From positions 1-52,502 of the forward strand of contig JAFGGA010000144.1 in assembly GCA_016930835.1 (NCBI GenBank): a stretch of 52,502 bases of DNA, written 5' to 3'. Positions 2,500 to 51,609 of this stretch are shown piece by piece. The first letter of the stretch is position 1; the number at the start of each line of letters is the position of its first letter. The position numbers and the translations under genes were made by a program. Under the pieces are notes generated by a model, which was given only the letters and a program-made list of their open reading frames with translations, was not told the DNA's origin and did not search any database. Source of the stretch: Deltaproteobacteria bacterium. Lineage in GTDB: Bacteria > Desulfobacterota > DSM-4660 > Desulfatiglandales > HGW-15.

Positions 2500-3918
2500 A
2501 TGAATAAACAGCCCAACAACGGTATTTCGGGAATAGAGAGTTTTGTCCTTTTCCAGAACAGTCAAGGCGAAAACGGTCGCGGCACGCTTATTCACCTTAC
2601 GCGGAATAATGTTGTATTCGAGACCTATAATCCGTATTCCATTGTTCAATTGAGTGAAGTTCTTAAGGATTTACGTATCTTTCGAGGTGAAAGGGCTATC
2701 TATTCGGGGAAAGCCGTAGTAAGCAACCTCGTACCGACTGGCCTCATGCTTATTGTCTCAGCGACACTAATGGATCCTTGGTCTGACTTGGTTGGCCTGG
2801 AACCTGGGAAAGGCCTGGCTGAAGAAACAAAGCGGTTTGTTAAAAATTGGGAAGACAATAATAGAATTTGCCCATCATACCAGCTTGTAATCAGTGATAT
2901 ACGGAATTTTTTGGAGGAACTGAGCCGGTGGCTGCAGCAGACAGAAGTCACAAATCAAAATATCAATGAGTACGATAATAATTTAGCACTGAAGAAAGAG
3001 TTCATTGAGGAAGTAGGTGAAGAAGTTCAATATAAGCTGGATGAACTTTTTATGGACTTTGAAAAAGAGGCAAGCAAAATATCTGATTATGAATTATCCA
3101 TACATGCAGCTTTTGCCCAAAGAATGCTCCACCCGTTAATCCTATGTTCGCCATTCATTCACAGGACTTTTACCAAACCTTTAGGGTATGCAGGGGATTA
3201 TAAGATGGTGAATATGATGCTTCAAGATCCAATTCAAGGTTCCAGCAGCTATGCATGTTTATTGAATTCATTTTTCATCAATCAGGCCGCCGCTGAGGCT
3301 CACCGAAACCGCATTTCAATACTTGAAGAACAACTTGATCGTGAAATCAGGTCATCAGCTAATAAAGGGAAACCTTTTCGAGTCATGAATATTGGATGCG
3401 GCCCTGCTGTAGAGATTCAGAAATACTTGAAACGCAATAGATTGATGAATCATTGCCATTTCAAATTAATTGATTTTAATGAGGAAACGATATCCTATAC
3501 CCGAGAGAGTCTTCAAAATGTTGTAGTACCCGAATCGCAAGGACCATATTTTGAATTTGTACACAAATCCATTCATGAACTTTTAAAAGAGGCGGTATCC
3601 GGTAACAAAAATGTGAAACAAGAGACATTTGACATGATTTATTGTGCAGGACTTTTCGACTACCTAAGCGATCGTGTTTGTAAACGCCTGCTCGATATTT
3701 ACTATGATAGGTTATCTTCCGGTGGTCTATTGATTGTGACCAATGTCCATCCTCGTAATCCGTTTCGCCAGTTTATGACCTACCTTCTCGAATGGCATTT
3801 GATCTATCGCGATGAGAGTCAAATGGAAAGAATATCACCCAAAGCAAATACAAAAAGAATATATACTGATGCGACAGGCGTCAATGTTTTTCTAGAGATC
3901 CGCAAAGAGAACAATTAG
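2500..3918 (+). CDS. PhcB-like SAM-dependent methyltransferase (hydroxy fatty acid methyl ester synthesis), N-terminal PilZ-like domain
   Basis: Predicted methyltransferase of the family annotated as 'extracellular factor 3-hydroxypalmitic acid methyl ester biosynthesis protein', like Ralstonia PhcB. With the ATG at 2500 it has 472 residues. The first ~95 residues look like a divergent PilZ-type beta barrel (weak call). A helical region follows, with the characteristic block KPLGYAGDYKMVNMM. The Rossmann domain has SAM motif I GCGPAVEI (about 299-306), an acidic strand end LIDFNEE, and FDMIYCAGLFDYL. Chemistry by analogy: methyl transfer to the carboxylate of a 3-hydroxy fatty acid, giving a diffusible signal. 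Its stop (TAG, 3916-3918) is one base from the ATG of the downstream kinase, so the two are co-transcribed. An in-frame TTG at 2446 would add 18 residues; neither start has a clear ribosome site. Confidence 0.8.
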   Translation: MNKQPNNGISGIESFVLFQNSQGENGRGTLIHLTRNNVVFETYNPYSIVQLSEVLKDLRIFRGERAIYSGKAVVSNLVPTGLMLIVSATLMDPWSDLVGLEPGKGLAEETKRFVKNWEDNNRICPSYQLVISDIRNFLEELSRWLQQTEVTNQNINEYDNNLALKKEFIEEVGEEVQYKLDELFMDFEKEASKISDYELSIHAAFAQRMLHPLILCSPFIHRTFTKPLGYAGDYKMVNMMLQDPIQGSSSYACLLNSFFINQAAAEAHRNRISILEEQLDREIRSSANKGKPFRVMNIGCGPAVEIQKYLKRNRLMNHCHFKLIDFNEETISYTRESLQNVVVPESQGPYFEFVHKSIHELLKEAVSGNKNVKQETFDMIYCAGLFDYLSDRVCKRLLDIYYDRLSSGGLLIVTNVHPRNPFRQFMTYLLEWHLIYRDESQMERISPKANTKRIYTDATGVNVFLEIRKENN

Positions 3919-3919
3919 T

Positions 3920-6544
3920 ATGAAAAATGGGACACAAGATCTAACCATTGTTGAGGCGTATAACCTCCAAGACAAGAATCTGCGACTTCATTATACAAGA
4001 ATTGCATGCATCTTATCTCTTATACTTATTCCAGCTGGCATAAGTCTCGATTTTTTTATATATCCAGATTTATTGATAAAGCTTTTCCAGATCAGAATGT
4101 TGTGTGATGTGGTAACTTCTTTAATCCTTATATCAACTTATAGCAAATTTGGATATAATCACATTATTGAACTTGGACTTTCTGTAATAATTTCTGCTAA
4201 TTTCGCAATGAGTATCATGATATATCTATCAGAAGGAGCTGTTTCACCTTATTATGCAGGCCTTAATTTAGCAATATTAGCTGTTGGCGTTCTTATGCCA
4301 TGGACATTCAAAGAGACTTTATTTGTTTGTTTTACAACATTTACAATGTACTTATTGGCCTGCCTCCTCCATAAAGGCACACCTATTTCTTGGAATATCC
4401 TTTTTAATAATTTTTACTTTCTCTTTTTGACTGCTGTTATTTGTTTGACCGCGAGTTTCTACATCTCCCGCCGCCGTTTTGAAGAATTTCGCCTTCGATA
4501 TGAGCTGAATATCCGGAACAAAGAACTCGCAAGGTCTTATGAACAATTGGAGGAAATGGATCGGCTCAAGACGGAATTTTTCGCCAATGTCAGCCATGAA
4601 CTCCGAACTCCGTTGACCTTAATTATTTCTCCCGTTCAGGACCTACTTCACAGGGAAGATATACTTCCCGGCGGAGCAAAGAACCCTTTAAAGATGGTTG
4701 AACAAAACGCCCTGCGACTTCTAAAGCTGATTAATGACCTCTTGGAGATCGTCCGTCTGGAGGAGGGCGGTTCTGCAATGAAGCGTCAGCCTATCAATCT
4801 GGTTTCCTTTATTTCGGGATTGATGGAATCGATAAGGCATTTGGCCGAGGCGAAAAATTTATCCATCAATCTTCAAGGCGACGAAGATAGCCTATGTATA
4901 CAAGGAGATCCTGAAAGACTGGAAAAGGTTTTTTTAAACCTTTTCACAAATGCCATAAAATTTACACCTGAAGGCGGTTCAATCACAACCAGATGGACTA
5001 ATGGTGACAATTCAGCTATAATAGAAGTTGAGGATACGGGTATTGGAATATCCGATAAGGATCTGCCTTATATATTCGACCGTTTCCGTCAGGCAGACGG
5101 TTCTTCAACGCGACGCTTTCAGGGATTGGGAATAGGGCTTTCATTAGCCAGGGCAGTGGTGGAAGAACATGAAGGAACCCTAACCGTCCAGAGCAAAGTG
5201 GGAAAGGGAACTATTTTTCGCATTGCATTACCGGCGGATATGAGCGCCGTTTCTTGCGAACAGACAGCCACTGATGAAGTCCACGAAAAAGATCCCATAG
5301 TCCATGTATATCAAGCCGCGGAGCGCGCGATAAGGATACCGTCCAGTAGTTCCGAAAAGATTCCCGGGATAGTGGGGACCGGTGAGTTTACGATCTTGAT
5401 CGTTGAAGATGAATCGGATATGCGGCAATTTTTGGTTTCCAAGTTGGCAATCCACTATCGTGTGATACAAACAGGGGACGGGAATGTTGGCCTAGATATG
5501 GTGAAACAGCATCGGCCGGATCTCGTGCTTCTGGATTTGATGCTCCCGGGTATGGATGGTTTGACCCTATGTTCAGTCATAAAAACCGACCCCGAGATGC
5601 GTCAGATCAAGGTAATCTTGCTTACGGCCCGTTTGGATGAGGAATCCAAGATCTCGGCCCTAGAGCGTGGTGCAGATGATTTCATCACCAAGCCTTTTAG
5701 TACAATGGAGGTGAAAACCCGTATCCATAATCTTTTAAAAACCGCAAGGTTGGAGCAGGATCTACGCAAACAAAATATGGAACTTGAAGATACCTTATCC
5801 CAGTTGAAAGATACCGAGGCCCAACTGGTTCAAAGTGAAAAGATGGGTGCCTTGGGCACATTGGCGGCCGGGCTCTTGCATGAGATCAACAACCCCTTAA
5901 ATTTTACGCTGACTGCGCTTCATGTGGCCATGAATCAAATCAATCACGCTGATAATGAAATAAAAGAGACCCTGGAAGATATTGATATGGGGATGACTCG
6001 GATACGTGATATTGTATCGGATTTAAGGTCTTTTACCCGTTCCCCGGGCGAAAACGAGCGTCAACCGTTTATGTTGTCGGAGGCCTATCAGACGGCCTTA
6101 AACCTTGTTTCTCATGAAATCAAGGATTTTCGGATCAATACCTCTATTTACCCGGATTATCGAGTGGTCGGTTCACGGACACAAGTGACACACGTATTTA
6201 TGAATTTACTGGTCAATTCGGCAAAGGCATTAAAGAAGATTTTGCAGGCGCGAGATCCGGAGATTCGAGTCACGGTCCTATCTCAAAACAATAAGGTTTT
6301 GATAAAGGTCTGGGATAACGGGAGCGGGATCAGCGCATGGGATCTGCCTCGAGTATTTGATCCTTTTTTTACGACCCAGGATGTGGGTCAAGGCACAGGA
6401 CTTGGTTTGAGTATTTGCCATACGATTATTAAAAATCATAACGGCAGGATTACCATCCAGAGTCAAGAAGGAGAATGGACGGAGGTCTGTTTTGATCTTC
6501 CGCTTTTTCAAAAGGAGAAAGACGCGTCAGGACCTACTGGATAG
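3920..6544 (+). CDS. Membrane hybrid kinase resembling PhcS and PhcR fused (6TM-HK-REC-HK)
   Basis: 874-residue membrane signalling protein. About six hydrophobic helices lie between residues 27 and 182. A linker coiled coil (about 195-217) leads to the first HisKA, H226 in NVSHELRTPL, and a complete ATPase domain (N335-349 LEKVFLNLFTNAIKF, G1 EDTGIGI, G2 GLGIGLSLA). A receiver follows at 490-607 (D497/E498 region, phospho-Asp D539, K591). A second HisKA has H654 in GLLHEINNPLN, and a second ATPase domain has N-box FMNLLVNSAKA, G1 WDNGSGI and FDPFFTT..GTGLGLS. In Ralstonia, PhcS is a membrane kinase and PhcR a receiver with a C-terminal kinase domain; this protein has both arrangements in that order in one chain. 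Placement one base after the PhcB-like gene supports a signal-sensing role. The signal itself is inferred. Confidence 0.88.
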   Translation: MKNGTQDLTIVEAYNLQDKNLRLHYTRIACILSLILIPAGISLDFFIYPDLLIKLFQIRMLCDVVTSLILISTYSKFGYNHIIELGLSVIISANFAMSIMIYLSEGAVSPYYAGLNLAILAVGVLMPWTFKETLFVCFTTFTMYLLACLLHKGTPISWNILFNNFYFLFLTAVICLTASFYISRRRFEEFRLRYELNIRNKELARSYEQLEEMDRLKTEFFANVSHELRTPLTLIISPVQDLLHREDILPGGAKNPLKMVEQNALRLLKLINDLLEIVRLEEGGSAMKRQPINLVSFISGLMESIRHLAEAKNLSINLQGDEDSLCIQGDPERLEKVFLNLFTNAIKFTPEGGSITTRWTNGDNSAIIEVEDTGIGISDKDLPYIFDRFRQADGSSTRRFQGLGIGLSLARAVVEEHEGTLTVQSKVGKGTIFRIALPADMSAVSCEQTATDEVHEKDPIVHVYQAAERAIRIPSSSSEKIPGIVGTGEFTILIVEDESDMRQFLVSKLAIHYRVIQTGDGNVGLDMVKQHRPDLVLLDLMLPGMDGLTLCSVIKTDPEMRQIKVILLTARLDEESKISALERGADDFITKPFSTMEVKTRIHNLLKTARLEQDLRKQNMELEDTLSQLKDTEAQLVQSEKMGALGTLAAGLLHEINNPLNFTLTALHVAMNQINHADNEIKETLEDIDMGMTRIRDIVSDLRSFTRSPGENERQPFMLSEAYQTALNLVSHEIKDFRINTSIYPDYRVVGSRTQVTHVFMNLLVNSAKALKKILQARDPEIRVTVLSQNNKVLIKVWDNGSGISAWDLPRVFDPFFTTQDVGQGTGLGLSICHTIIKNHNGRITIQSQEGEWTEVCFDLPLFQKEKDASGPTG

Positions 6545-6630
6545 AAGGGATCAAAAACCAATTCAGACACTAAATTTTTACATTCAAAATCACTCTTGGC
6601 CTGTTGGTGTTACATAAAAATAATGTTAAT

Positions 6631-6646
6631 TATTCAACCTTGAATA
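6631..6646. promoter_or_regulatory. Imperfect palindrome upstream of receiver-kinase gene
   Basis: TATTCAACCTTGAATA is a 16-bp dyad with one mismatched central pair, lying about 90 bp upstream of the start at 6739 in an otherwise featureless 194-bp gap. It could be a protein-binding operator. Its four-base loop and lack of a T tract argue against a terminator. No factor is known; the call rests on symmetry only. Confidence 0.2.
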
Positions 6647-6725
6647 GAGTGTAGAATCATTTTATAAGGTTCGAGCATTGCCAGGATATCGGAGGATATT
6701 TATTTCCAAAATGGTGAGCCTTTAT

Positions 6726-6731
6726 GGAGGG
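6726..6731 (+). promoter_or_regulatory. Ribosome binding site deciding the start at 6739
   Basis: GGAGGG lies seven bases upstream of ATG 6739. It overlaps the alternative upstream ATG at 6724, which has no comparable site. This favours 6739 as the true start. Confidence 0.7.
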
Positions 6732-6738
6732 ATCCATC

Positions 6739-7992
6739 ATGTATGACTATAAAAAATATGCAATTCTCTTTGTAGACGACGAAGAAAAGGCCCTTAAATA
6801 TTTTAAAAAGGCTTTTGAGAATGAGTTTCGCGTTTTAACCGCTTTGAGTGTAAAAGAGGCGGAAAAGATTATCGAAAACGAGGACGGCAAAATCGGAATC
6901 GTCATAACGGATCAACGGATGCCGGGTGAGACGGGTGTTGATTTGTTGGGACGCATACGCCGCTTGAAACCAAATATCATACGCATGCTCACAACCGCCT
7001 ATTCAGATCTGGATAGTGCCATTGAATCAGTTAATTCTGGAGCTATTTTCAAGTACATCGTCAAACCTTGGGACCTACGGGACCTTCGTGGTTGTCTTAT
7101 GCGCGGAATGGAATTTTTTTTGATACAAGAGGAGCGAGACATCCTTCTTCGAGAAAAATTCAGCATGCTGGAACGGCTCATTGTTATGGATCGCGTGCGC
7201 AGCTTGGCCGTGCTCGTGGCTGGCTTGGGACATCATATTCGAAATCCAATGACCGCATTAAAGACATTCCTGGATTTGATTCCAAAAAAGCTGAGCGATG
7301 AATTATCGCATGCACGTGATCTCAAAAATCCGGAATTTTGGGATGATTTCTGGACATTGGCGGCTAGAGAGAGTGAACATATTCTAAAAATAATCGATAA
7401 TGTGGGAGAGGCCGTTGTTCAACCATCCGATTATTTTAGCGGTCCTTATGGCCTTAATGAATTAATCAGTGAGGGTGTATCATGGGTAAAAGATAAGTCC
7501 AGCATGACGGGAGGATCTATTTTTGTTGATATCTCCGGGGATATGCCGCCTTTTTTGGCGGACGAAAGAATGTTGAAACGCTTTTTTCTGAATATTCTGA
7601 GAGGTATGATGACCATCAATCCTCTTGGCATGAATATAACCCTCAAGGCAGTTGAAAAAACCCGGGTGTGGGGAACGGAAGGGATTAGAATCTGGATTAC
7701 TGAAGATGGGCCGGCATGGACGGATACTCAAACGGAGTCCCTCTTCACCCCATTTTCCATAACGGTCGGCAACCTTCAGGATCCAGGGCTGGATCTTCTG
7801 GCCGCTTTTTTCATCATTCACCACCACAGTGGCGATATTCAGGTCCATAGAATATCCCCATTTGGTCCCGGATTTGAGATCTTATTGCCGTTTAATCCGG
7901 AGGCCGCGCAACATCCTTCCATGGATGAAGACTACCTGAAAAAGATCATGATGCATTCTGAAACATGGGATGAAATGAGAGGAGGCCTATAA
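6739..7992 (+). CDS. Receiver domain fused to a degenerate histidine-kinase module (PhcQ/PhcR-like)
   Basis: 417 residues from the ATG at 6739. The N-terminal receiver (about 5-125) has acidic VDDEEK, phospho-Asp D58 in ITDQRMPGETG and K109 in YIVKPW, with the WD after the Lys typical of RpfG/HD-GYP-type receivers. A DHp-like helix carries two adjacent histidines (H165/H166, in GLGHHIRNPMTALK). The ATPase-like region (about 250-390) is eroded. The N-box position reads FFLNILRGM without the second Asn, the G1 box reads EDGPAW instead of DxGxG, and the G2 glycine run is missing. It may therefore bind a partner or act as a phosphatase rather than a kinase. As the third gene after the PhcB-like and PhcS/R-like genes, it sits where phcQ lies in Ralstonia. 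It could equally be a PhcR counterpart. Confidence 0.8.
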   Translation: MYDYKKYAILFVDDEEKALKYFKKAFENEFRVLTALSVKEAEKIIENEDGKIGIVITDQRMPGETGVDLLGRIRRLKPNIIRMLTTAYSDLDSAIESVNSGAIFKYIVKPWDLRDLRGCLMRGMEFFLIQEERDILLREKFSMLERLIVMDRVRSLAVLVAGLGHHIRNPMTALKTFLDLIPKKLSDELSHARDLKNPEFWDDFWTLAARESEHILKIIDNVGEAVVQPSDYFSGPYGLNELISEGVSWVKDKSSMTGGSIFVDISGDMPPFLADERMLKRFFLNILRGMMTINPLGMNITLKAVEKTRVWGTEGIRIWITEDGPAWTDTQTESLFTPFSITVGNLQDPGLDLLAAFFIIHHHSGDIQVHRISPFGPGFEILLPFNPEAAQHPSMDEDYLKKIMMHSETWDEMRGGL

Positions 7993-7997
7993 GGTTC

Positions 7998-8254
7998 GTG
8001 AGAATCGTCCTGGTCACCTATGGTTCCCGTGGTGATGTTCAACCCATGTTGGCAATTTTTTTGGCCCTTCAAAGAGAAGGACATCAAGTCCTCCTGGTAG
8101 GCCCGCCGGAGAGAGCGCAATGGGCGAAAGAATATCATTGCACTTTTTTCCTTTGGGGACAATTTAAGCGCTTTCATCGATAGCATTTATCAGACTTATA
8201 CCTGAGGATAGTTTGGCAATGACGATTAAGGAGGTATTGAGAGCTGCAGACTGA
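7998..8254 (+). pseudogene. Remnant of a MurG/UGT-type glycosyltransferase (frameshift plus internal deletion)
   Basis: A GTG at 7998, six bases after the previous stop, opens MRIVLVTYGSRGDVQPMLAI, the typical N-terminus of GT1/GT28 sterol- or macrolide-type glycosyltransferases. The frame stops at 8183 after 61 codons; the family is normally about 400 residues. Moving to another frame within the T tract at 8144-8149 restores family-like sequence (FSFGDNLSAFIDSIYQTYT) to a TGA at 8203. A third frame, from about 8195 to the TGA at 8252, reads IPEDSLAMTIKEVLRAAD, which resembles the helical C-terminus of such enzymes. I read this as a glycosyltransferase that lost its middle and picked up a frameshift. 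The N-terminal assignment is firm; the C-terminal piece is an inference. Confidence 0.6.
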
Positions 8255-8640: not shown

Positions 8641-8646
8641 ATGACC

Positions 8647-9231
8647 ATGGTAACATTACTCGTCATCGATAATTATGATTCTTTTACCTACAACCTTGTA
8701 CAGATGTTTATGTTGTATGATCTCCGGATCAAGGTTATTCGCTGTGATCAAATCTCTCTTAAGCAGGTTGAATCCCTGTCCCCCGATTATGTCCTCATCA
8801 GTCCGGGACCAAAGGACCCTCAGCACGCAGGGATATCCATCCAACTGGTCCGAACCTTTTTTAAAAAGATTCCCATTTTGGGTATATGTCTGGGGATGCA
8901 ATGCATTAATGAGGCTTTCGGGGGTAAGACGATTCGTGCGCCCGTTCCCATGCATGGAAAAACAAGTATTATCAGCCATATTCAACAGGGGATTTTTAAA
9001 AATATTCCATCACCGTTCACAGCAGCCCGTTATCATTCCTTGGTTGCTCAGTTAAACGGTAATAAAGGTCTCATGATAACATCTCAAACGCAAGATGGTA
9101 TCATTATGGGGCTTTCCCATCCGTCATACCCTCTCCATGGTCTTCAATTTCATCCTGAGAGTTTTTTAACGGAATATGGTTTTGAGTTGGTGGAAAATTT
9201 TTTTGCCTTAGGACCCTATAAAAAGGCTTAG
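8647..9231 (+). CDS. pabA: Aminodeoxychorismate/anthranilate synthase glutamine amidotransferase component
   Basis: Class I (triad) glutamine amidotransferase of the TrpG/PabA family, 194 residues, normal length. It opens LLVIDNYDSFTYNLVQMF. The oxyanion strand is SPGPKDP. The nucleophile is C81 in GICLGMQCI. The remaining triad members are H169 and E171 in LQFHPESFLTEYG. It releases ammonia from glutamine for its synthase partner. The adjacent gene 33 bp downstream is a PabB-PabC fusion, so the pair makes 4-aminobenzoate for folate. A shared role in tryptophan synthesis cannot be excluded, but no other trp gene is in the window. Confidence 0.92.
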   Translation: MVTLLVIDNYDSFTYNLVQMFMLYDLRIKVIRCDQISLKQVESLSPDYVLISPGPKDPQHAGISIQLVRTFFKKIPILGICLGMQCINEAFGGKTIRAPVPMHGKTSIISHIQQGIFKNIPSPFTAARYHSLVAQLNGNKGLMITSQTQDGIIMGLSHPSYPLHGLQFHPESFLTEYGFELVENFFALGPYKKA

Positions 9232-9264
9232 AGCGCGAGACGCGGGGTAATATAAAGATTTTTT

Positions 9265-11502
9265 ATGCATGATATTCATGAAACCTCAGGCGAAATAAGA
9301 GACATTCACATAGAACAAATGGAAATTCGGGAAGAATTCTTGGAATTTGGTTCACGATTCGCGGCCATGCCGGGGACGGTTTTGTTGATGAGTGGTGGAG
9401 ATCTGGATTGCGCTAGATATCATATACTTGGCGTAAAACCGTGGCTTACTTTTGCGGGTAGAGGCTATGCCATGAATATTTCCGTAAATGGCCGGTGCTT
9501 CCAGCTTGACCAAGACCCCTTTGATACCCTCCGTATGATACTGAAGGCATATACCCTGGTTGGCATAAATCATACACTCCCCATCATCGCTGGTCTTATG
9601 GGGTATCTTTCCTATGACTTGAAAGATTATATTGAAAAGCTTCCGCGGACATCCATTGATGATCTGGTTCTTCCTCATATTTGCCTTTACGCACCATCCA
9701 TCATTGTTATTCGGGATAAGCTTCAAAAACAGGACTGGTTGTGTATTCCCGATCGATTTGTAAATGGACGGAGCTTTTATCATCAGGATCATGAATGGTT
9801 TCTTACCGCCTTACACTCAAAACCGCCTATGCTTGAATCATTCCAGGGAAATATACAGGGACTCCGGTCCAATTTTTCCAAAAACGATTATATCTCCTCC
9901 ATTGAAAAAATACGGGATTATATTGTTTCCGGTCATGCATATCAGGTCAATATGTCTCAAAGGTTTCAAACGGATTTTAGAGGGGATGCCTTCTCCCTAT
10001 TTTCTTCATTATATAAAAAAAACCCGGCGCCATTTTTTGCCTTTTTAAATGCCGGCGATCATCAGATCATATCCACATCTCCCGAACGCTTTCTGAAACG
10101 CGTGGGCGACCGGATAGAGACACGACCCATTAAAGGAACCAAGCCAAGGGGACAAAACAAGGCGGAAGACCACGTATTCAGGCGTCAACTGGAACAAAGC
10201 AACAAGGATGATGCAGAACTGTCCATGATCGTGGATCTGTTGCGTAATGACCTGGGTAAGGTATGCAAGGCAGGCACGGTTCGCGTCACTGAGCATAAAC
10301 GGGTTGAAGCATATGAGAATGTTTTTCACCTGGTATCCATTGTGGAAGGTTTGCTGGAAGACCGATGCGATACCACAGACCTTATCAAAGCGGCATTTCC
10401 AGGCGGTTCCATCACCGGTTGCCCCAAGATAAGGGCTATGGAAATCATAGATGAATTGGAACCTCACAGACGTCATATCTATACTGGTTCCATCGGTTAT
10501 ATGAGCTTTCATCAGACTCTGGATTTATCCATCGCCATTCGAACAGCTACCCTCCATAACGGTAAGATCTTGTTTTCCGTTGGTGGCGGGATCGTTCATG
10601 ATTCCGATCCAGAAGATGAATTTCATGAAACCTTGCATAAAGGAAAAACGTTGATGAATGTTTTTCAAGGAATTCATGAAATGACCGTTGAACCTCAAAA
10701 GGCCTGGGTGAATGGGAGGATACAAGCCTTGGATCAATCCCATATAAAGATTATGGATCCGGGATTCCAATATGGATATGGGTTTTTTGAAACCATACGT
10801 GTGGATCATGGGCATATCAAGTTTCTGGATGCCCATATGGATAGATTTAACAGGACTTGGAGGCACATTTTTGATCAAATCATCCCTGACCTTTCTTGGG
10901 ATGATATTCTTCTTCAAGTCATTCGAGAGAATAGATTGGAAAACGAGGTCGCCGCAGTCAAGCTAATCGCGGCCCGGGGTACGAGACATGAACCACCTTT
11001 TGATCATAACATCATTGTTTTTCCAAGGCCATATAAGCATCGTTTGGATGGTAAAAATGAATGTGGACTTAAACTCGCCACCTATCCCGAAGCGAGGCAC
11101 ACACCCTTGGCGGATCATAAGACCCTCAATTACCTTTATTATTATTTGGCTGGCCAATGGGCAATGCATCAAGGTTATGATGAGGCCTTGATCTTGAATC
11201 CAAACGGCAGCATCTCTGAGACCAATAGCGCAAATATCTTCCTGGTCAACGGAAGCAAATGCATCAAACCCGCTTCTTCCCATGTCCTGCCGGGCATTAT
11301 GGAACAAAAGGTCGAAGAACTGCTTCTTCAATGGGGATATATAATGGAAAAAAAGATCTTATTTCCTCATGACCTGTTTTATGCGGATGCTGTCATTATC
11401 ACCAATTCGCTCATGGGAGCAGCCCCGGTTTCGGCGATGAATGGGCAAGCGTTAAAGCACTTAAAGGGCCTTTGCGAAAGCATTAATGAGGCCCTGCTTT
11501 AG
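9265..11502 (+). CDS. pabBC: Aminodeoxychorismate synthase component I fused to aminodeoxychorismate lyase (PabB-PabC)
   Basis: 745-residue fusion. Residues 1-470 are PabB. An N-terminal domain is followed by the chorismate-binding domain, with AYQVNMSQRF, the PabB-type Lys K290 in RPIKGTKPRG, DDAELSMIVDLLRNDLG, AFPGGSITGCPKIRAM and the C-terminal GGGIVHDSDPEDEFHET. Residues ~475-745 are a class IV PLP fold like PabC: FQYGYGFFETIR, Schiff-base Lys K619 in DHKTLNYL, and cofactor-site SETNSANIF around 651-659. Together the two halves convert chorismate plus PabA-derived ammonia to 4-amino-4-deoxychorismate and then to 4-aminobenzoate and pyruvate. The start at 9265 lacks a strong ribosome site; ATG 9322 (M20) is an alternative. 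All catalytic residues appear intact. Confidence 0.93.
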   Translation: MHDIHETSGEIRDIHIEQMEIREEFLEFGSRFAAMPGTVLLMSGGDLDCARYHILGVKPWLTFAGRGYAMNISVNGRCFQLDQDPFDTLRMILKAYTLVGINHTLPIIAGLMGYLSYDLKDYIEKLPRTSIDDLVLPHICLYAPSIIVIRDKLQKQDWLCIPDRFVNGRSFYHQDHEWFLTALHSKPPMLESFQGNIQGLRSNFSKNDYISSIEKIRDYIVSGHAYQVNMSQRFQTDFRGDAFSLFSSLYKKNPAPFFAFLNAGDHQIISTSPERFLKRVGDRIETRPIKGTKPRGQNKAEDHVFRRQLEQSNKDDAELSMIVDLLRNDLGKVCKAGTVRVTEHKRVEAYENVFHLVSIVEGLLEDRCDTTDLIKAAFPGGSITGCPKIRAMEIIDELEPHRRHIYTGSIGYMSFHQTLDLSIAIRTATLHNGKILFSVGGGIVHDSDPEDEFHETLHKGKTLMNVFQGIHEMTVEPQKAWVNGRIQALDQSHIKIMDPGFQYGYGFFETIRVDHGHIKFLDAHMDRFNRTWRHIFDQIIPDLSWDDILLQVIRENRLENEVAAVKLIAARGTRHEPPFDHNIIVFPRPYKHRLDGKNECGLKLATYPEARHTPLADHKTLNYLYYYLAGQWAMHQGYDEALILNPNGSISETNSANIFLVNGSKCIKPASSHVLPGIMEQKVEELLLQWGYIMEKKILFPHDLFYADAVIITNSLMGAAPVSAMNGQALKHLKGLCESINEALL

Positions 11503-30886: not shown

Positions 30887-31348
30887 ATGCTTACAAGACC
30901 TTGGCAACGACATTATCATTTTGACGTTACCACCCCAATTCGTTATCCCAGGGTCCCCAACCGAGAATTTTTGCAGGCATCTGCAAAGGCATTCCCTGAT
31001 AAAACGGCCTTACATTTTTTCGGGACTGCAATGACCTTTTGGGATCTCAGGATACATATCCTTCCTATGACCAACGCCCTTGGGTCCCTAGGCGTCCAAA
31101 AGGGCGACCGAGTCGATATCCATCTTCCCACACGCCCTCAATTGGTTGTTGCCCCCAAAGCGGTGGTATCCTTGGGCGGCATTGTGGTTGACCTCAATCC
31201 CATGTACACGGCGGAAGAACCCAATGCCTTGGTTACTACGAATACGGGAATTTCAACCTTCATTACATTGGATACGGTCCTTTCCAATATTCGTGTTTTG
31301 GACCGAGTTGAACCGATAATACCTTTTGAAAAGGGAGTCATCACATGA
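30887..31348 (+). pseudogene. Truncated AMP-dependent acyl-CoA synthetase (N-terminal fragment)
   Basis: 153 codons. The first ~130 match the N-terminus of FadD-type ligases: RPWQRHYHFDV, FLQASAKAFPDKTALHFFG, LGVQKGDRVDIHLPTRPQ and GGIVVDLNPMYTAEE. Everything with catalytic motifs (P-loop, A5, A7, A8) is missing, and full-length relatives have about 500-560 residues. It starts at the base after the DUF362 stop and ends in an ATGA overlap with the next gene, so operon spacing is intact. The last ~12 residues (IIPFEKGVIT) may be the original C-terminus joined by an in-frame deletion. It cannot be an active ligase. It is either decaying or kept for translational coupling. Confidence 0.75.
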
Positions 31349-49470: not shown

Positions 49471-51609
49471 ATGAAAAAGATGGTTATTGTTTTATTATTC
49501 GTCATTTTCACTTTGAGTATGAATATTTCATGGGCCTATGACGGGAAGACTCATTCAAAAATCAATGAAAAGGCTACTAGAGTTTCTCAATTGGATTCTT
49601 TGTTGCTCAAATTGGGCTTTGATCAAGGAATTGATTCATTCGTGAGCGGAAATTCGGGAGAAAGAAGGGTATGGCAATGGATTGGTTATGGTGGTGAAGC
49701 CGAAGACTTTGGCTTGCCACCTTTTAAGAATGACCCTACAAGTACACGGGCTTTTAACCATTTTCATGATCCTCTAGAAGAATGGGATGAAGCTCGATTA
49801 AATAACCCTATAACTACTGCATTGTATATGGCAAGGTACTTGAGATACCCTGTCTCAGCAATACTTTGGGGACTCGATTCGGGGAGGCAAGATTTTTTAA
49901 AGAATTATACGGGTGACTGGTCTTGGGGCAAAGCTAGGGATTATTATTATAAAGCTTTAGCAAAACGAACAGAAGGTGAAAGAAATCAAAACTTAGCCGA
50001 TTGTTTTAGGGCGGTTGGACAGGTGATGCATTTGTTACAAGATATGAGTATCCCGCTTCATACTCGAAACGATGTTCATATTTTTCCATTAAATGACCGG
50101 CCTTTATCATTATGGACTTATGAGACCTATGTTAAGCATAATATTGACGCCCATTTGTATAAATCCGTTATTTTCCCACCATCTGTTTTGCTAACAGACC
50201 CTCAACCCGACCAGAACTATACAGGTATAACGCCTGCAAGCGGCCTATTTGACAGAGATCAATATCATTCCAATAGCGTCCTTCCAGATGTTAATGATGC
50301 AATAGGGCTTTCTGAGTTTTCAAACGCCTTTTTTTTGACGCAAGATACTATGTGGATATATCCAAATCCGGCAATTAATGACACAAACATAAGCGAGATT
50401 GCCTGGACTCATCCGGAATTAATAATGGCAGAGGATGGAACATCTGATAACCGTGTATATATAAGATATAAAGATGGTATAGGTTTAGATATCGAACATT
50501 TAGCCTCAGTCGATTATTTTACTATTAACTATCAAAGTCAAATAACTACAATACTTCACGCAGCGCTTTCTTTGGATGAAGAGTGCTGGAAAGATTATGC
50601 CGATCTACTGATACCCCGTGCAGTGGGTTACTCTGCAGATCTTTTGGATTATTTTTTCCGAGGAAGTATCGAAATCACCATTGCGGATGACGGCTTTTAT
50701 GCCCTTACTGACGATCCAACAGCCGGCTTTACAGGCCTAAAACTCAAGGCTATGAATACCACGGAGGATAATGAAGTGATGGAAGATGGTACCGTGGATC
50801 TTGTTGTCAAATACAGACTGTCATCAGGTGATCCATTTACAAATGCGCATCCACCTACATCTTGGGACTTTTATTATAAGGTTGTTCCTGAACAAAATAA
50901 TATCAGCTCTGTACCCCGAGATACACCCGTTGAGCTTACATTCGATTTGGGCGGTGAAAATGCTATTCCTCTATGGGCGACAGATGTCTATTTATACGTT
51001 GTGTTTAGAGGAAAGCTTGGAAATGAGGAAAATGCAATTGCCGTTGGATTCAAGGATATCAGTGAACCCACACCCATCGATGTGTTTAATAACATGGATA
51101 AGATCTGTTTTAACGGTGTATGGGAGGATGCCGGTGATCCGGATCTTATTGATTATGTGGACAATCCTCTGAATGGCGGGAATAACAATGGGATAGCGGA
51201 TGAGTATGATGTCTATGCGCATAATTTAACAGATATTTATTTCAGGTTTTCACCTATGGACCAACCGGCTTTTTGGCCTTCTGAAACTGATTATCATTAT
51301 ACAGTTGACCGAATCAATGGCGGTGAGTTTAGTCGAAGTTTTTATGTTCTTGCCGATTATGACATGGTCTATACCTTCCGGGCCACACCGGAAGCGCTTG
51401 CCGGTGATCCGTTTGGCCATCCTTATATGTATGGATATGAAGATTATCAAGCCGTTAAAAATCAGATTGAATGGACAGGATCATATTATACCAGATGGGT
51501 GCCTCCATTTTATGATTTTCGGGGTGTGGAGATGTATGGTGGGATATTCATTATCAATGAACCTTACCCGGACCCGGATGATCTTTATGCTTGTCCGTAT
51601 GATTTATGA
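49471..51609 (+). CDS. Secreted protein with zinc-dependent phospholipase C / S1-P1-like N-terminal domain
   Basis: 712 residues with a signal peptide (MKKMVIVLLFVIFTLSMNIS, cleavage near SWA-YDG). The N-terminal ~380 residues are mostly helical, with potential zinc ligands H28 (DGKTHSKIN), H97/H99 (FNHFHDP) and HLLQDMSIPLH with H187, D191 and H197. The H-x3-D-x5-H spacing equals H118/D122/H128 of Bacillus cereus phospholipase C. E218 in WTYETYVKHN may complete the site. The C-terminal ~300 residues are beta-rich, with a calcium-like GNNNGIADEYD stretch, and may be a binding module. Fold and metal site are inferred; activity on phospholipid or nucleic acid cannot be told. AGGAG precedes the ATG at 49471. 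Confidence 0.72.
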   Translation: MKKMVIVLLFVIFTLSMNISWAYDGKTHSKINEKATRVSQLDSLLLKLGFDQGIDSFVSGNSGERRVWQWIGYGGEAEDFGLPPFKNDPTSTRAFNHFHDPLEEWDEARLNNPITTALYMARYLRYPVSAILWGLDSGRQDFLKNYTGDWSWGKARDYYYKALAKRTEGERNQNLADCFRAVGQVMHLLQDMSIPLHTRNDVHIFPLNDRPLSLWTYETYVKHNIDAHLYKSVIFPPSVLLTDPQPDQNYTGITPASGLFDRDQYHSNSVLPDVNDAIGLSEFSNAFFLTQDTMWIYPNPAINDTNISEIAWTHPELIMAEDGTSDNRVYIRYKDGIGLDIEHLASVDYFTINYQSQITTILHAALSLDEECWKDYADLLIPRAVGYSADLLDYFFRGSIEITIADDGFYALTDDPTAGFTGLKLKAMNTTEDNEVMEDGTVDLVVKYRLSSGDPFTNAHPPTSWDFYYKVVPEQNNISSVPRDTPVELTFDLGGENAIPLWATDVYLYVVFRGKLGNEENAIAVGFKDISEPTPIDVFNNMDKICFNGVWEDAGDPDLIDYVDNPLNGGNNNGIADEYDVYAHNLTDIYFRFSPMDQPAFWPSETDYHYTVDRINGGEFSRSFYVLADYDMVYTFRATPEALAGDPFGHPYMYGYEDYQAVKNQIEWTGSYYTRWVPPFYDFRGVEMYGGIFIINEPYPDPDDLYACPYDL

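Follow-up and report, generated by a model that had tools for sequence, protein, structure and literature searches.

A probable PhcB-PhcS-PhcQ-type signalling locus with an extended sensor kinase in a Desulfobacterota genome

Three adjacent genes in a 52,502-nucleotide stretch of a Deltaproteobacteria bacterium genome (Desulfobacterota, order Desulfatiglandales; the whole stretch is called the window here) probably form a PhcB-PhcS-PhcQ signalling locus related to the phc quorum sensing of Ralstonia, a reading to which we give a probability of roughly 70%. Its PhcS would carry an extra kinase-receiver module between the membrane sensor and its own kinase. Sequence comparisons show orthology of the methyltransferase, the transmembrane (TM) sensor and the second kinase domain (HK2), as well as an affinity of the third gene with PhcQ, intact phosphorylation sites and recurrence of the set in other phyla. 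A first-pass annotation, made from the letters of the window, had proposed a Phc-type locus in which PhcS and PhcR are fused. The locus itself holds up, with a methyltransferase inside the PhcB clade, the TM sensor and kinase of PhcS, and a PhcQ-like gene next to them; the fusion does not. The open reading frames (ORFs) it had listed, the one-base spacing, the six TM helices (6TM), the two kinases and one receiver, and the sites H226, D539 and H654 were all confirmed by an ORF check, Pfam, alignment and, for the TM part, a structure model. The reference sequences for PhcB, PhcS, PhcR and PhcQ belong to R. pickettii, Cupriavidus, Paraburkholderia and related bacteria, not to R. solanacearum itself, and trees were quick searches, except for the receiver tree that gives the PhcQ grouping.

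Identity of the three gene products

A plasmid search with the methyltransferase (METHYLTRANSFERASE) returned a single strong match, a gene of Paraburkholderia graminis (46% identity, 96% query coverage). Downstream of it lie genes for a kinase of 445 amino acids (aa), a receiver of 134 aa and a receiver protein of 344 aa, which make up a phc-type operon. In Ralstonia pickettii (L110), taken from a scan of GTDB, the genes code for 470, 442, 368 and 339 aa, near the sizes published for R. solanacearum (PhcB 464–468, PhcR 368–374 and PhcQ 336–337; PMC8578825). Full-length identity between the window methyltransferase and Burkholderiales PhcB is 42–46%. In a 51-row tree it forms one clade with all Burkholderiales PhcB at 100%, to which none of 28 further methyltransferases from the window's phylum belongs, and a wider 58-row tree again recovers the PhcB clade with the window protein (99%), a placement that agrees with the family proposed at first pass. 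The block KPLGYAGDY, which had been taken as a mark of that family, is not diagnostic of PhcB because GYAGD is present in 14 of 14 methyltransferases outside the clade; the clade is marked by its N-terminal domain and by full-length similarity. P45, Q50 and W94 in the N-terminal region are conserved in the PhcB clade and occur in no cousin methyltransferase. The strand order of this beta domain led us to suspect PilZ; a Pfam search matched the domain in none of 25 members, and whole-chain Foldseek listed methyltransferases only. A PDB sequence search gave no solved relative of the enzyme. By Pfam and Foldseek the candidate synthase is an S-adenosylmethionine (SAM) methyltransferase and not a pyridoxal phosphate (PLP)-dependent synthase of the LqsA/CqsA type; LqsA, which the first-pass annotation had named together with PhcB for a profile search, is PLP-dependent and unrelated to PhcB (PMC10653808). 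We infer that the methyltransferase makes a hydroxy-fatty-acid methyl ester signal.

The kinase gene starts one base past the methyltransferase stop, and Pfam finds two HisKA, two HATPase_c and one receiver domain in its 874-aa product. Over residues 1–200 the TM sensor has 22–32% identity to Burkholderiales PhcS and 35–40% to the other hybrid kinases described below. Its model (predicted local distance difference test score 94.6) is a bundle of long helices with a signalling helix; the fold matches are weak (E≥0.009, TM-score up to 0.69) and comprise ImcA, Mycobacterium Rv1625c/Cya and the TM domains of the mammalian adenylyl cyclases AC9/AC5, all of them 6TM domains with ligands under study. 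A PDB sequence search found no solved relative of the sensor domain.

HK2 is 44% identical to the R. pickettii PhcS kinase (200 bits) and scores 49 bits against R. pickettii PhcR. It falls in a clade with PhcS kinases, not PhcR, with support of 99 and 96 in two trees and 61 in a smaller set. In the alignment, the counterpart of H654 in R. pickettii PhcS is H230, both within the motif AGLLHEINNP, and H230 is the autophosphorylation site of PhcS in R. pseudosolanacearum (PMC11960443). The first kinase domain, HK1, has its histidine at a residue number (H226) close to that of H230 in PhcS, yet it is not the kinase of PhcS: it belongs to a clade of 18 HK1s that stands apart from both PhcS and PhcR kinases. 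The internal receiver is likewise set apart from PhcR and PhcQ receivers in two receiver analyses. Because HK2 groups with PhcS, and HK1 and the internal receiver group apart, the sensor is, on these alignments and trees, a PhcS carrying an HK1-receiver module between sensor and own kinase, not a PhcS joined to PhcR. Among the hybrids, H226, E227 and D539 are kept in 27 of 27 sequences and H654 in all 26 that reach that position.

For the third gene the likeliest start is 6739, not 6724, since GGAGG lies 8 bases upstream and the ortholog in the related genome G355 likewise begins MYDY. The receiver of its product groups with PhcQ (82/87), a grouping repeated in a second receiver analysis, and the phospho-acceptor aspartate is kept in all 20 sequences aligned. 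The C-terminal half is a decayed kinase, with a HisKA match of 28.7 bits, the H-box GHHIRNP and no HATPase match in the Pfam search. Along the series from the window, G355 and planctomycetes to Burkholderiales PhcQ the H-box motif is lost progressively, which suggests that the C-terminal half of PhcQ descends from a histidine kinase. Given this decay and the lack of a DNA-binding domain, the PhcQ-like protein probably acts by binding a partner protein; in R. pseudosolanacearum, PhcQ binds and stabilizes PhcA (PMC13320629).

Distribution and direction of change

G355 conserves the three genes as one unit, at 52, 57 and 58% identity, and no other window gene has an ortholog around the G355 locus. 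We surveyed further genomes with the methyltransferase as query, sampling phyla through three metagenome-assembled genomes (MAGs) as anchors, whose titles supply the group names: an Opitutaceae MAG, a 'Planctomyces' MAG and the 'Proteobacteria' MAG G370. PhcB-clade members occur in 2 of 85 genomes of the window's order (the window genome and G355, two genera of one family), and in 297 sampled genomes of its phylum none was found besides the window genome itself. The counts are 16/289 for the phylum of the Opitutaceae MAG, with one further member at 29% identity that lacks the kinase, 9/294 for that of the 'Planctomyces' MAG and 7/398 for that of G370. Every non-Burkholderiales locus bar the 29%-identity one has the hybrid PhcS, 27 of them fused and one split (G494 of the Verrucomicrobiota group; L163:4589-7306) into TM-HK1 (485 aa) and receiver-HK2 (395 aa) proteins. 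The set of phcB, hybrid phcS and phcQ is present in sampled Planctomycetota and Verrucomicrobiota, in the relative of the window genome and in one non-Burkholderiales "Proteobacteria" MAG; the order B-S-Q is shared by the window, G355, the Opitutaceae and 'Planctomyces' MAGs and the sampled Verrucomicrobiota and Planctomycetota loci. The neighbourhood survey, suggested at first pass for Desulfobacterota, finds the three genes again in G355 and in several other phyla, so that the grouping is not a product of chance. In G370, the methyltransferase lies within ~150 bp of a contig end and the kinase is cut by the start of a different contig. Burkholderiales loci (76 counted, plus four fetched from the sample) have a short PhcS without the HK1-receiver module. 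The GTDB scan missed most non-Burkholderiales members, later found by the sampled-phyla searches, because its two peptide patterns were too narrow. A 1569-aa 'hybrid' in L112 proved to be an over-extended reading frame and was discarded.

Both the methyltransferase tree and a concatenated methyltransferase-TM-HK2 tree nest Burkholderiales inside the hybrids, beside G370 (97 in the concatenated tree). Approximately unbiased tests do not reject the hybrids as one clade (p 0.45, 0.58 and 0.13), so that loss of HK1 and the receiver in Burkholderiales is favoured but unproven. We give even odds to the following history: within an ester-based quorum-sensing lineage that spans Planctomycetota, Verrucomicrobiota and the window's phylum, the hybrid PhcS, together with PhcQ, would be the older arrangement and Ralstonia PhcS a reduced descendant that lost the module and uses a separate PhcR.

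A full-text literature search outside subscription journals found no report of phcB with Planctomycetes, and its matches for phcB with Verrucomicrobia were, by titles and abstracts, not about such loci. Hydroxy-fatty-acid methyl ester signalling has so far been studied mostly in plant pathogens and their relatives, and the present loci suggest that it may be a widespread language of soil and water bacteria. Whereas a 2023 survey of Proteobacteria placed phc clusters in Betaproteobacteria only (PMC10653808), the phc core is now found in Planctomycetota, Verrucomicrobiota and a sulfite-reducing relative.

As an observation on the wider family, four loci of the window's order (L123:5671-12710, L124:1353-8177, L125:2427-7978 and L129:4298-9371) place a distant (~30%) PhcB-like methyltransferase beside a PhcS-like 6TM-SpoIIE protein of ~450 aa. 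Pfam was checked for the 6TM-SpoIIE proteins of L123, L125 and L129, L123 also has a SiaC-like small protein, and PAS hybrid kinases or a cyclase lie nearby. These loci are possibly a second type of methyltransferase-receptor pair.

Signalling model and alternative readings

In the proposed scheme, PhcB would methylate a 3-hydroxy fatty acid to give a diffusible methyl ester, which the 6TM domain of PhcS would bind, switching HK1. HK1 (H226) would phosphorylate the internal receiver (D539), and the phosphorylated receiver would in turn gate HK2 (H654), much as in LvrB, a receiver-controlled kinase, a phosphorylated receiver activates the kinase behind it (PMC13269768). From HK2 the phosphate would pass to D58 in the receiver of the PhcQ-like protein, and this protein would bind a partner as PhcQ binds PhcA in Ralstonia, the partner here being no recognizable PhcA. 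In Burkholderiales the sensor is joined straight to HK2.

Several points weigh against this account. The locus has no separate PhcR gene, and by the trees the internal receiver and the kinases are not those of PhcR. A search with a 68-residue PhcA N-terminus, which finds a 100% match in R. pickettii at a distance of about 13 kb from phcS, gave no match at E≤1e-5 in the window genome (G000) or in four other hybrid genomes. The window genome, 95.5% complete, has just two LysR-type proteins, neither with BLAST similarity to PhcA, and hence a partner other than PhcA must be assumed; the first-pass remark that no PhcA-like regulator lies in the window is borne out and, as far as tested, extends to the genome. 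Identity of the TM sensor to Burkholderiales PhcS is low, support for the PhcQ grouping is moderate, and the 194-bp gap between the kinase gene and the PhcQ-like gene makes their co-transcription uncertain. Substrate and signal are assigned from sequence, and the order of phosphotransfer is read from the domain architecture. Promoter and terminator scans of the locus stayed at chance level.

The alternatives differ in which part of the proposal they replace. If the 874-aa protein were PhcS fused to PhcR, HK1 would be the kinase of PhcS and the receiver with HK2 would be PhcR; the domain order is the one expected of such a fusion, G494 has exactly the corresponding split form, and the lack of a separate PhcR in the window locus would follow. 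However, HK2 groups with the PhcS kinase and scores far higher against it than against PhcR, HK1 groups with neither, the internal receiver stands apart from that of PhcR, and separate PhcR-like receiver-kinase genes exist alongside the hybrid in G370, G371, G504, G412 and G421 (of these, the one in G370 joins the PhcR kinases with support of 93 and has a long branch). We therefore reject this fusion as very improbable: PhcS is matched by the TM sensor and by HK2, and neither kinase is that of PhcR. That the locus stems from misassembly or contamination, or from a single recent transfer, is hardly credible: draft assemblies or MAGs do underlie the window and several comparators, yet the locus also lies on multi-megabase contigs (G625, 6.4 Mb; G628, 4.9 Mb; G494, 3.1 Mb), occurs in two genera of the window's own family, differs between genomes (45–60% identity) and resembles its neighbours in base composition.

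A non-quorum pair, with an enzyme whose methylation target is a membrane lipid or a protein and a 6TM kinase that responds to membrane state, would suit the wider methyltransferase family: in relatives of the window genome its members adjoin 6TM-SpoIIE phosphatases as well as other kinases, with no signal known there, and the hydroxy-fatty-acid substrate is itself a prediction. We consider it unlikely in view of the full-length PhcB orthology, N-terminal domain included, and because the enzyme is paired with the PhcS sensor, which in Ralstonia takes the PhcB product as its ligand. Doubtful too is a parallel wiring, with HK2 answering the membrane sensor by itself and the HK1-receiver module serving as an independent input from other kinases or as a phosphate sink. 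Burkholderiales PhcS does function without the module, and in LvrAB His218 of LvrA hands phosphate directly to LvrB (PMC5863495), but in all 27 hybrids HK1 directly follows the sensor helix and the receiver directly precedes HK2, with the sites conserved. A PhcB-PhcS-PhcQ locus with a serially wired hybrid sensor is the reading we prefer. Since every phosphorylation site of a possible relay is in one protein and one partner, the hybrid renders the poorly understood PhcS-PhcR-PhcQ wiring testable, and the decayed kinase domain of the PhcQ-like protein hints at the past identity of the unexplained C-terminal half of PhcQ.

Features of the window and relation to known systems

Table 1 Features of the candidate phc-type locus (positions in the window)
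Feature	Position	Strand	Details
PhcB-type SAM-dependent methyltransferase gene	2500..3918	+	472 aa, ATG start
N-terminal six-stranded beta domain, residues 15-90	2542..2769	+	AlphaFold2 model; common to PhcB
KPLGYAGDY block, residues 226-234	3175..3201	+	present in almost every member of the PhcB clade
Class I SAM-methyltransferase domain, residues 293-468	3376..3903	+	Pfam Methyltransf_25 at 294-417; Foldseek matches class I methyltransferases
Hybrid PhcS gene, 6TM-HK1-receiver-HK2	3920..6544	+	874 aa
PhcS-type 6TM sensor domain, residues 1-200	3920..4519	+	alignment and model
Inserted kinase HK1, HisKA H226 (codon 4595-4597) and HATPase	4568..5236	+	Pfam
Inserted receiver, D539 (codon 5534-5536)	5393..5725	+	Pfam residues 492-602
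PhcS-orthologous kinase HK2, HisKA H654 (codon 5879-5881) and HATPase	5837..6523	+	similarity and trees
PhcQ-like gene	6739..7992	+	417 aa; receiver (D58) and degenerate histidine-kinase domain
Receiver domain of PhcQ-like protein (TDQRMPG, KPW)	6763..7089	+	Pfam residues 9-117

Directly behind the PhcQ-like gene, a short frame at 7996-8178 (FVRIVLVTYGSRGDVQPMLAIFLALQREGHQVLLVGPPERAQWAKEYHC..., then a stop) resembles what is left of the N-terminus of a UGT-type glycosyltransferase. It is followed at 8641-11502 by a PabA-like glutamine amidotransferase and a 745-aa fusion of a chorismate-binding enzyme with an aminotransferase of class IV (PabB-PabC type). Further away, a 153-aa ORF at 30887-31348, flanked by a DUF362 protein on one side and a fatty-acid oxidation protein on the other, matches the first quarter only of an AMP-binding enzyme and is a truncated gene or a frameshift, and a 712-aa ORF without a Pfam match (49471-51609) lies behind a 2472-aa FG-GAP/cadherin-repeat protein. 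Elsewhere in the genome, dsrA of dissimilatory sulfite reductase (G000:C187:61712-62971; 569 bits, above cut-off) fits a sulfite- or sulfate-reducing anaerobe, in line with the anaerobe part of the first-pass guess at a Desulfobacterota anaerobe.

Among the closest known systems is the Phc system of Ralstonia and Cupriavidus (phcBSRQ with phcA); in common with it the window locus has a methyltransferase of the PhcB clade that agrees in its N-terminal domain and in length, the TM sensor and kinase of PhcS, the PhcQ-like receiver protein and the order B-S-Q. The window locus differs in the additional HK1 and receiver within the sensor, in having no separate PhcR in the locus and no PhcA found in the genome, in kinase-domain remnants that Burkholderiales PhcQ has lost, and in lying outside Betaproteobacteria. 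Leptospira LvrA, a PAS-HK-receiver-HK protein with H218, D524 and H616 (PMC5863495), has the same kinase-receiver-kinase order at very similar spacing (H226, D539 and H654 in the window) and is likewise followed by a receiver/kinase partner; its sensor is a soluble PAS domain instead of the PhcS 6TM domain, and the described Lvr pair has no methyltransferase. Against the LvrA family NF047465 the window kinase scores 317 bits, below the cut-off of 1200, the architecture being similar and the family not. A six-helix membrane sensor is shared with the CqsS/LqsS quorum receptors and with 6TM adenylyl cyclase anchors, a design common to quorum receptors and cyclase anchors (PMC4821796), but ligands and synthases differ from those of CqsS/LqsS (LqsA being PLP-dependent), and the window sensor has no sequence match to solved structures. 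Finally, the PhcB-cousin methyltransferases of the window's order resemble the window enzyme at ~30% identity, have the GYAGD block and are partnered by a PhcS-like 6TM domain, whereas they form a separate clade (99–100% support) with a SpoIIE phosphatase and SiaC-like protein as output in place of the PhcS kinase and PhcQ.

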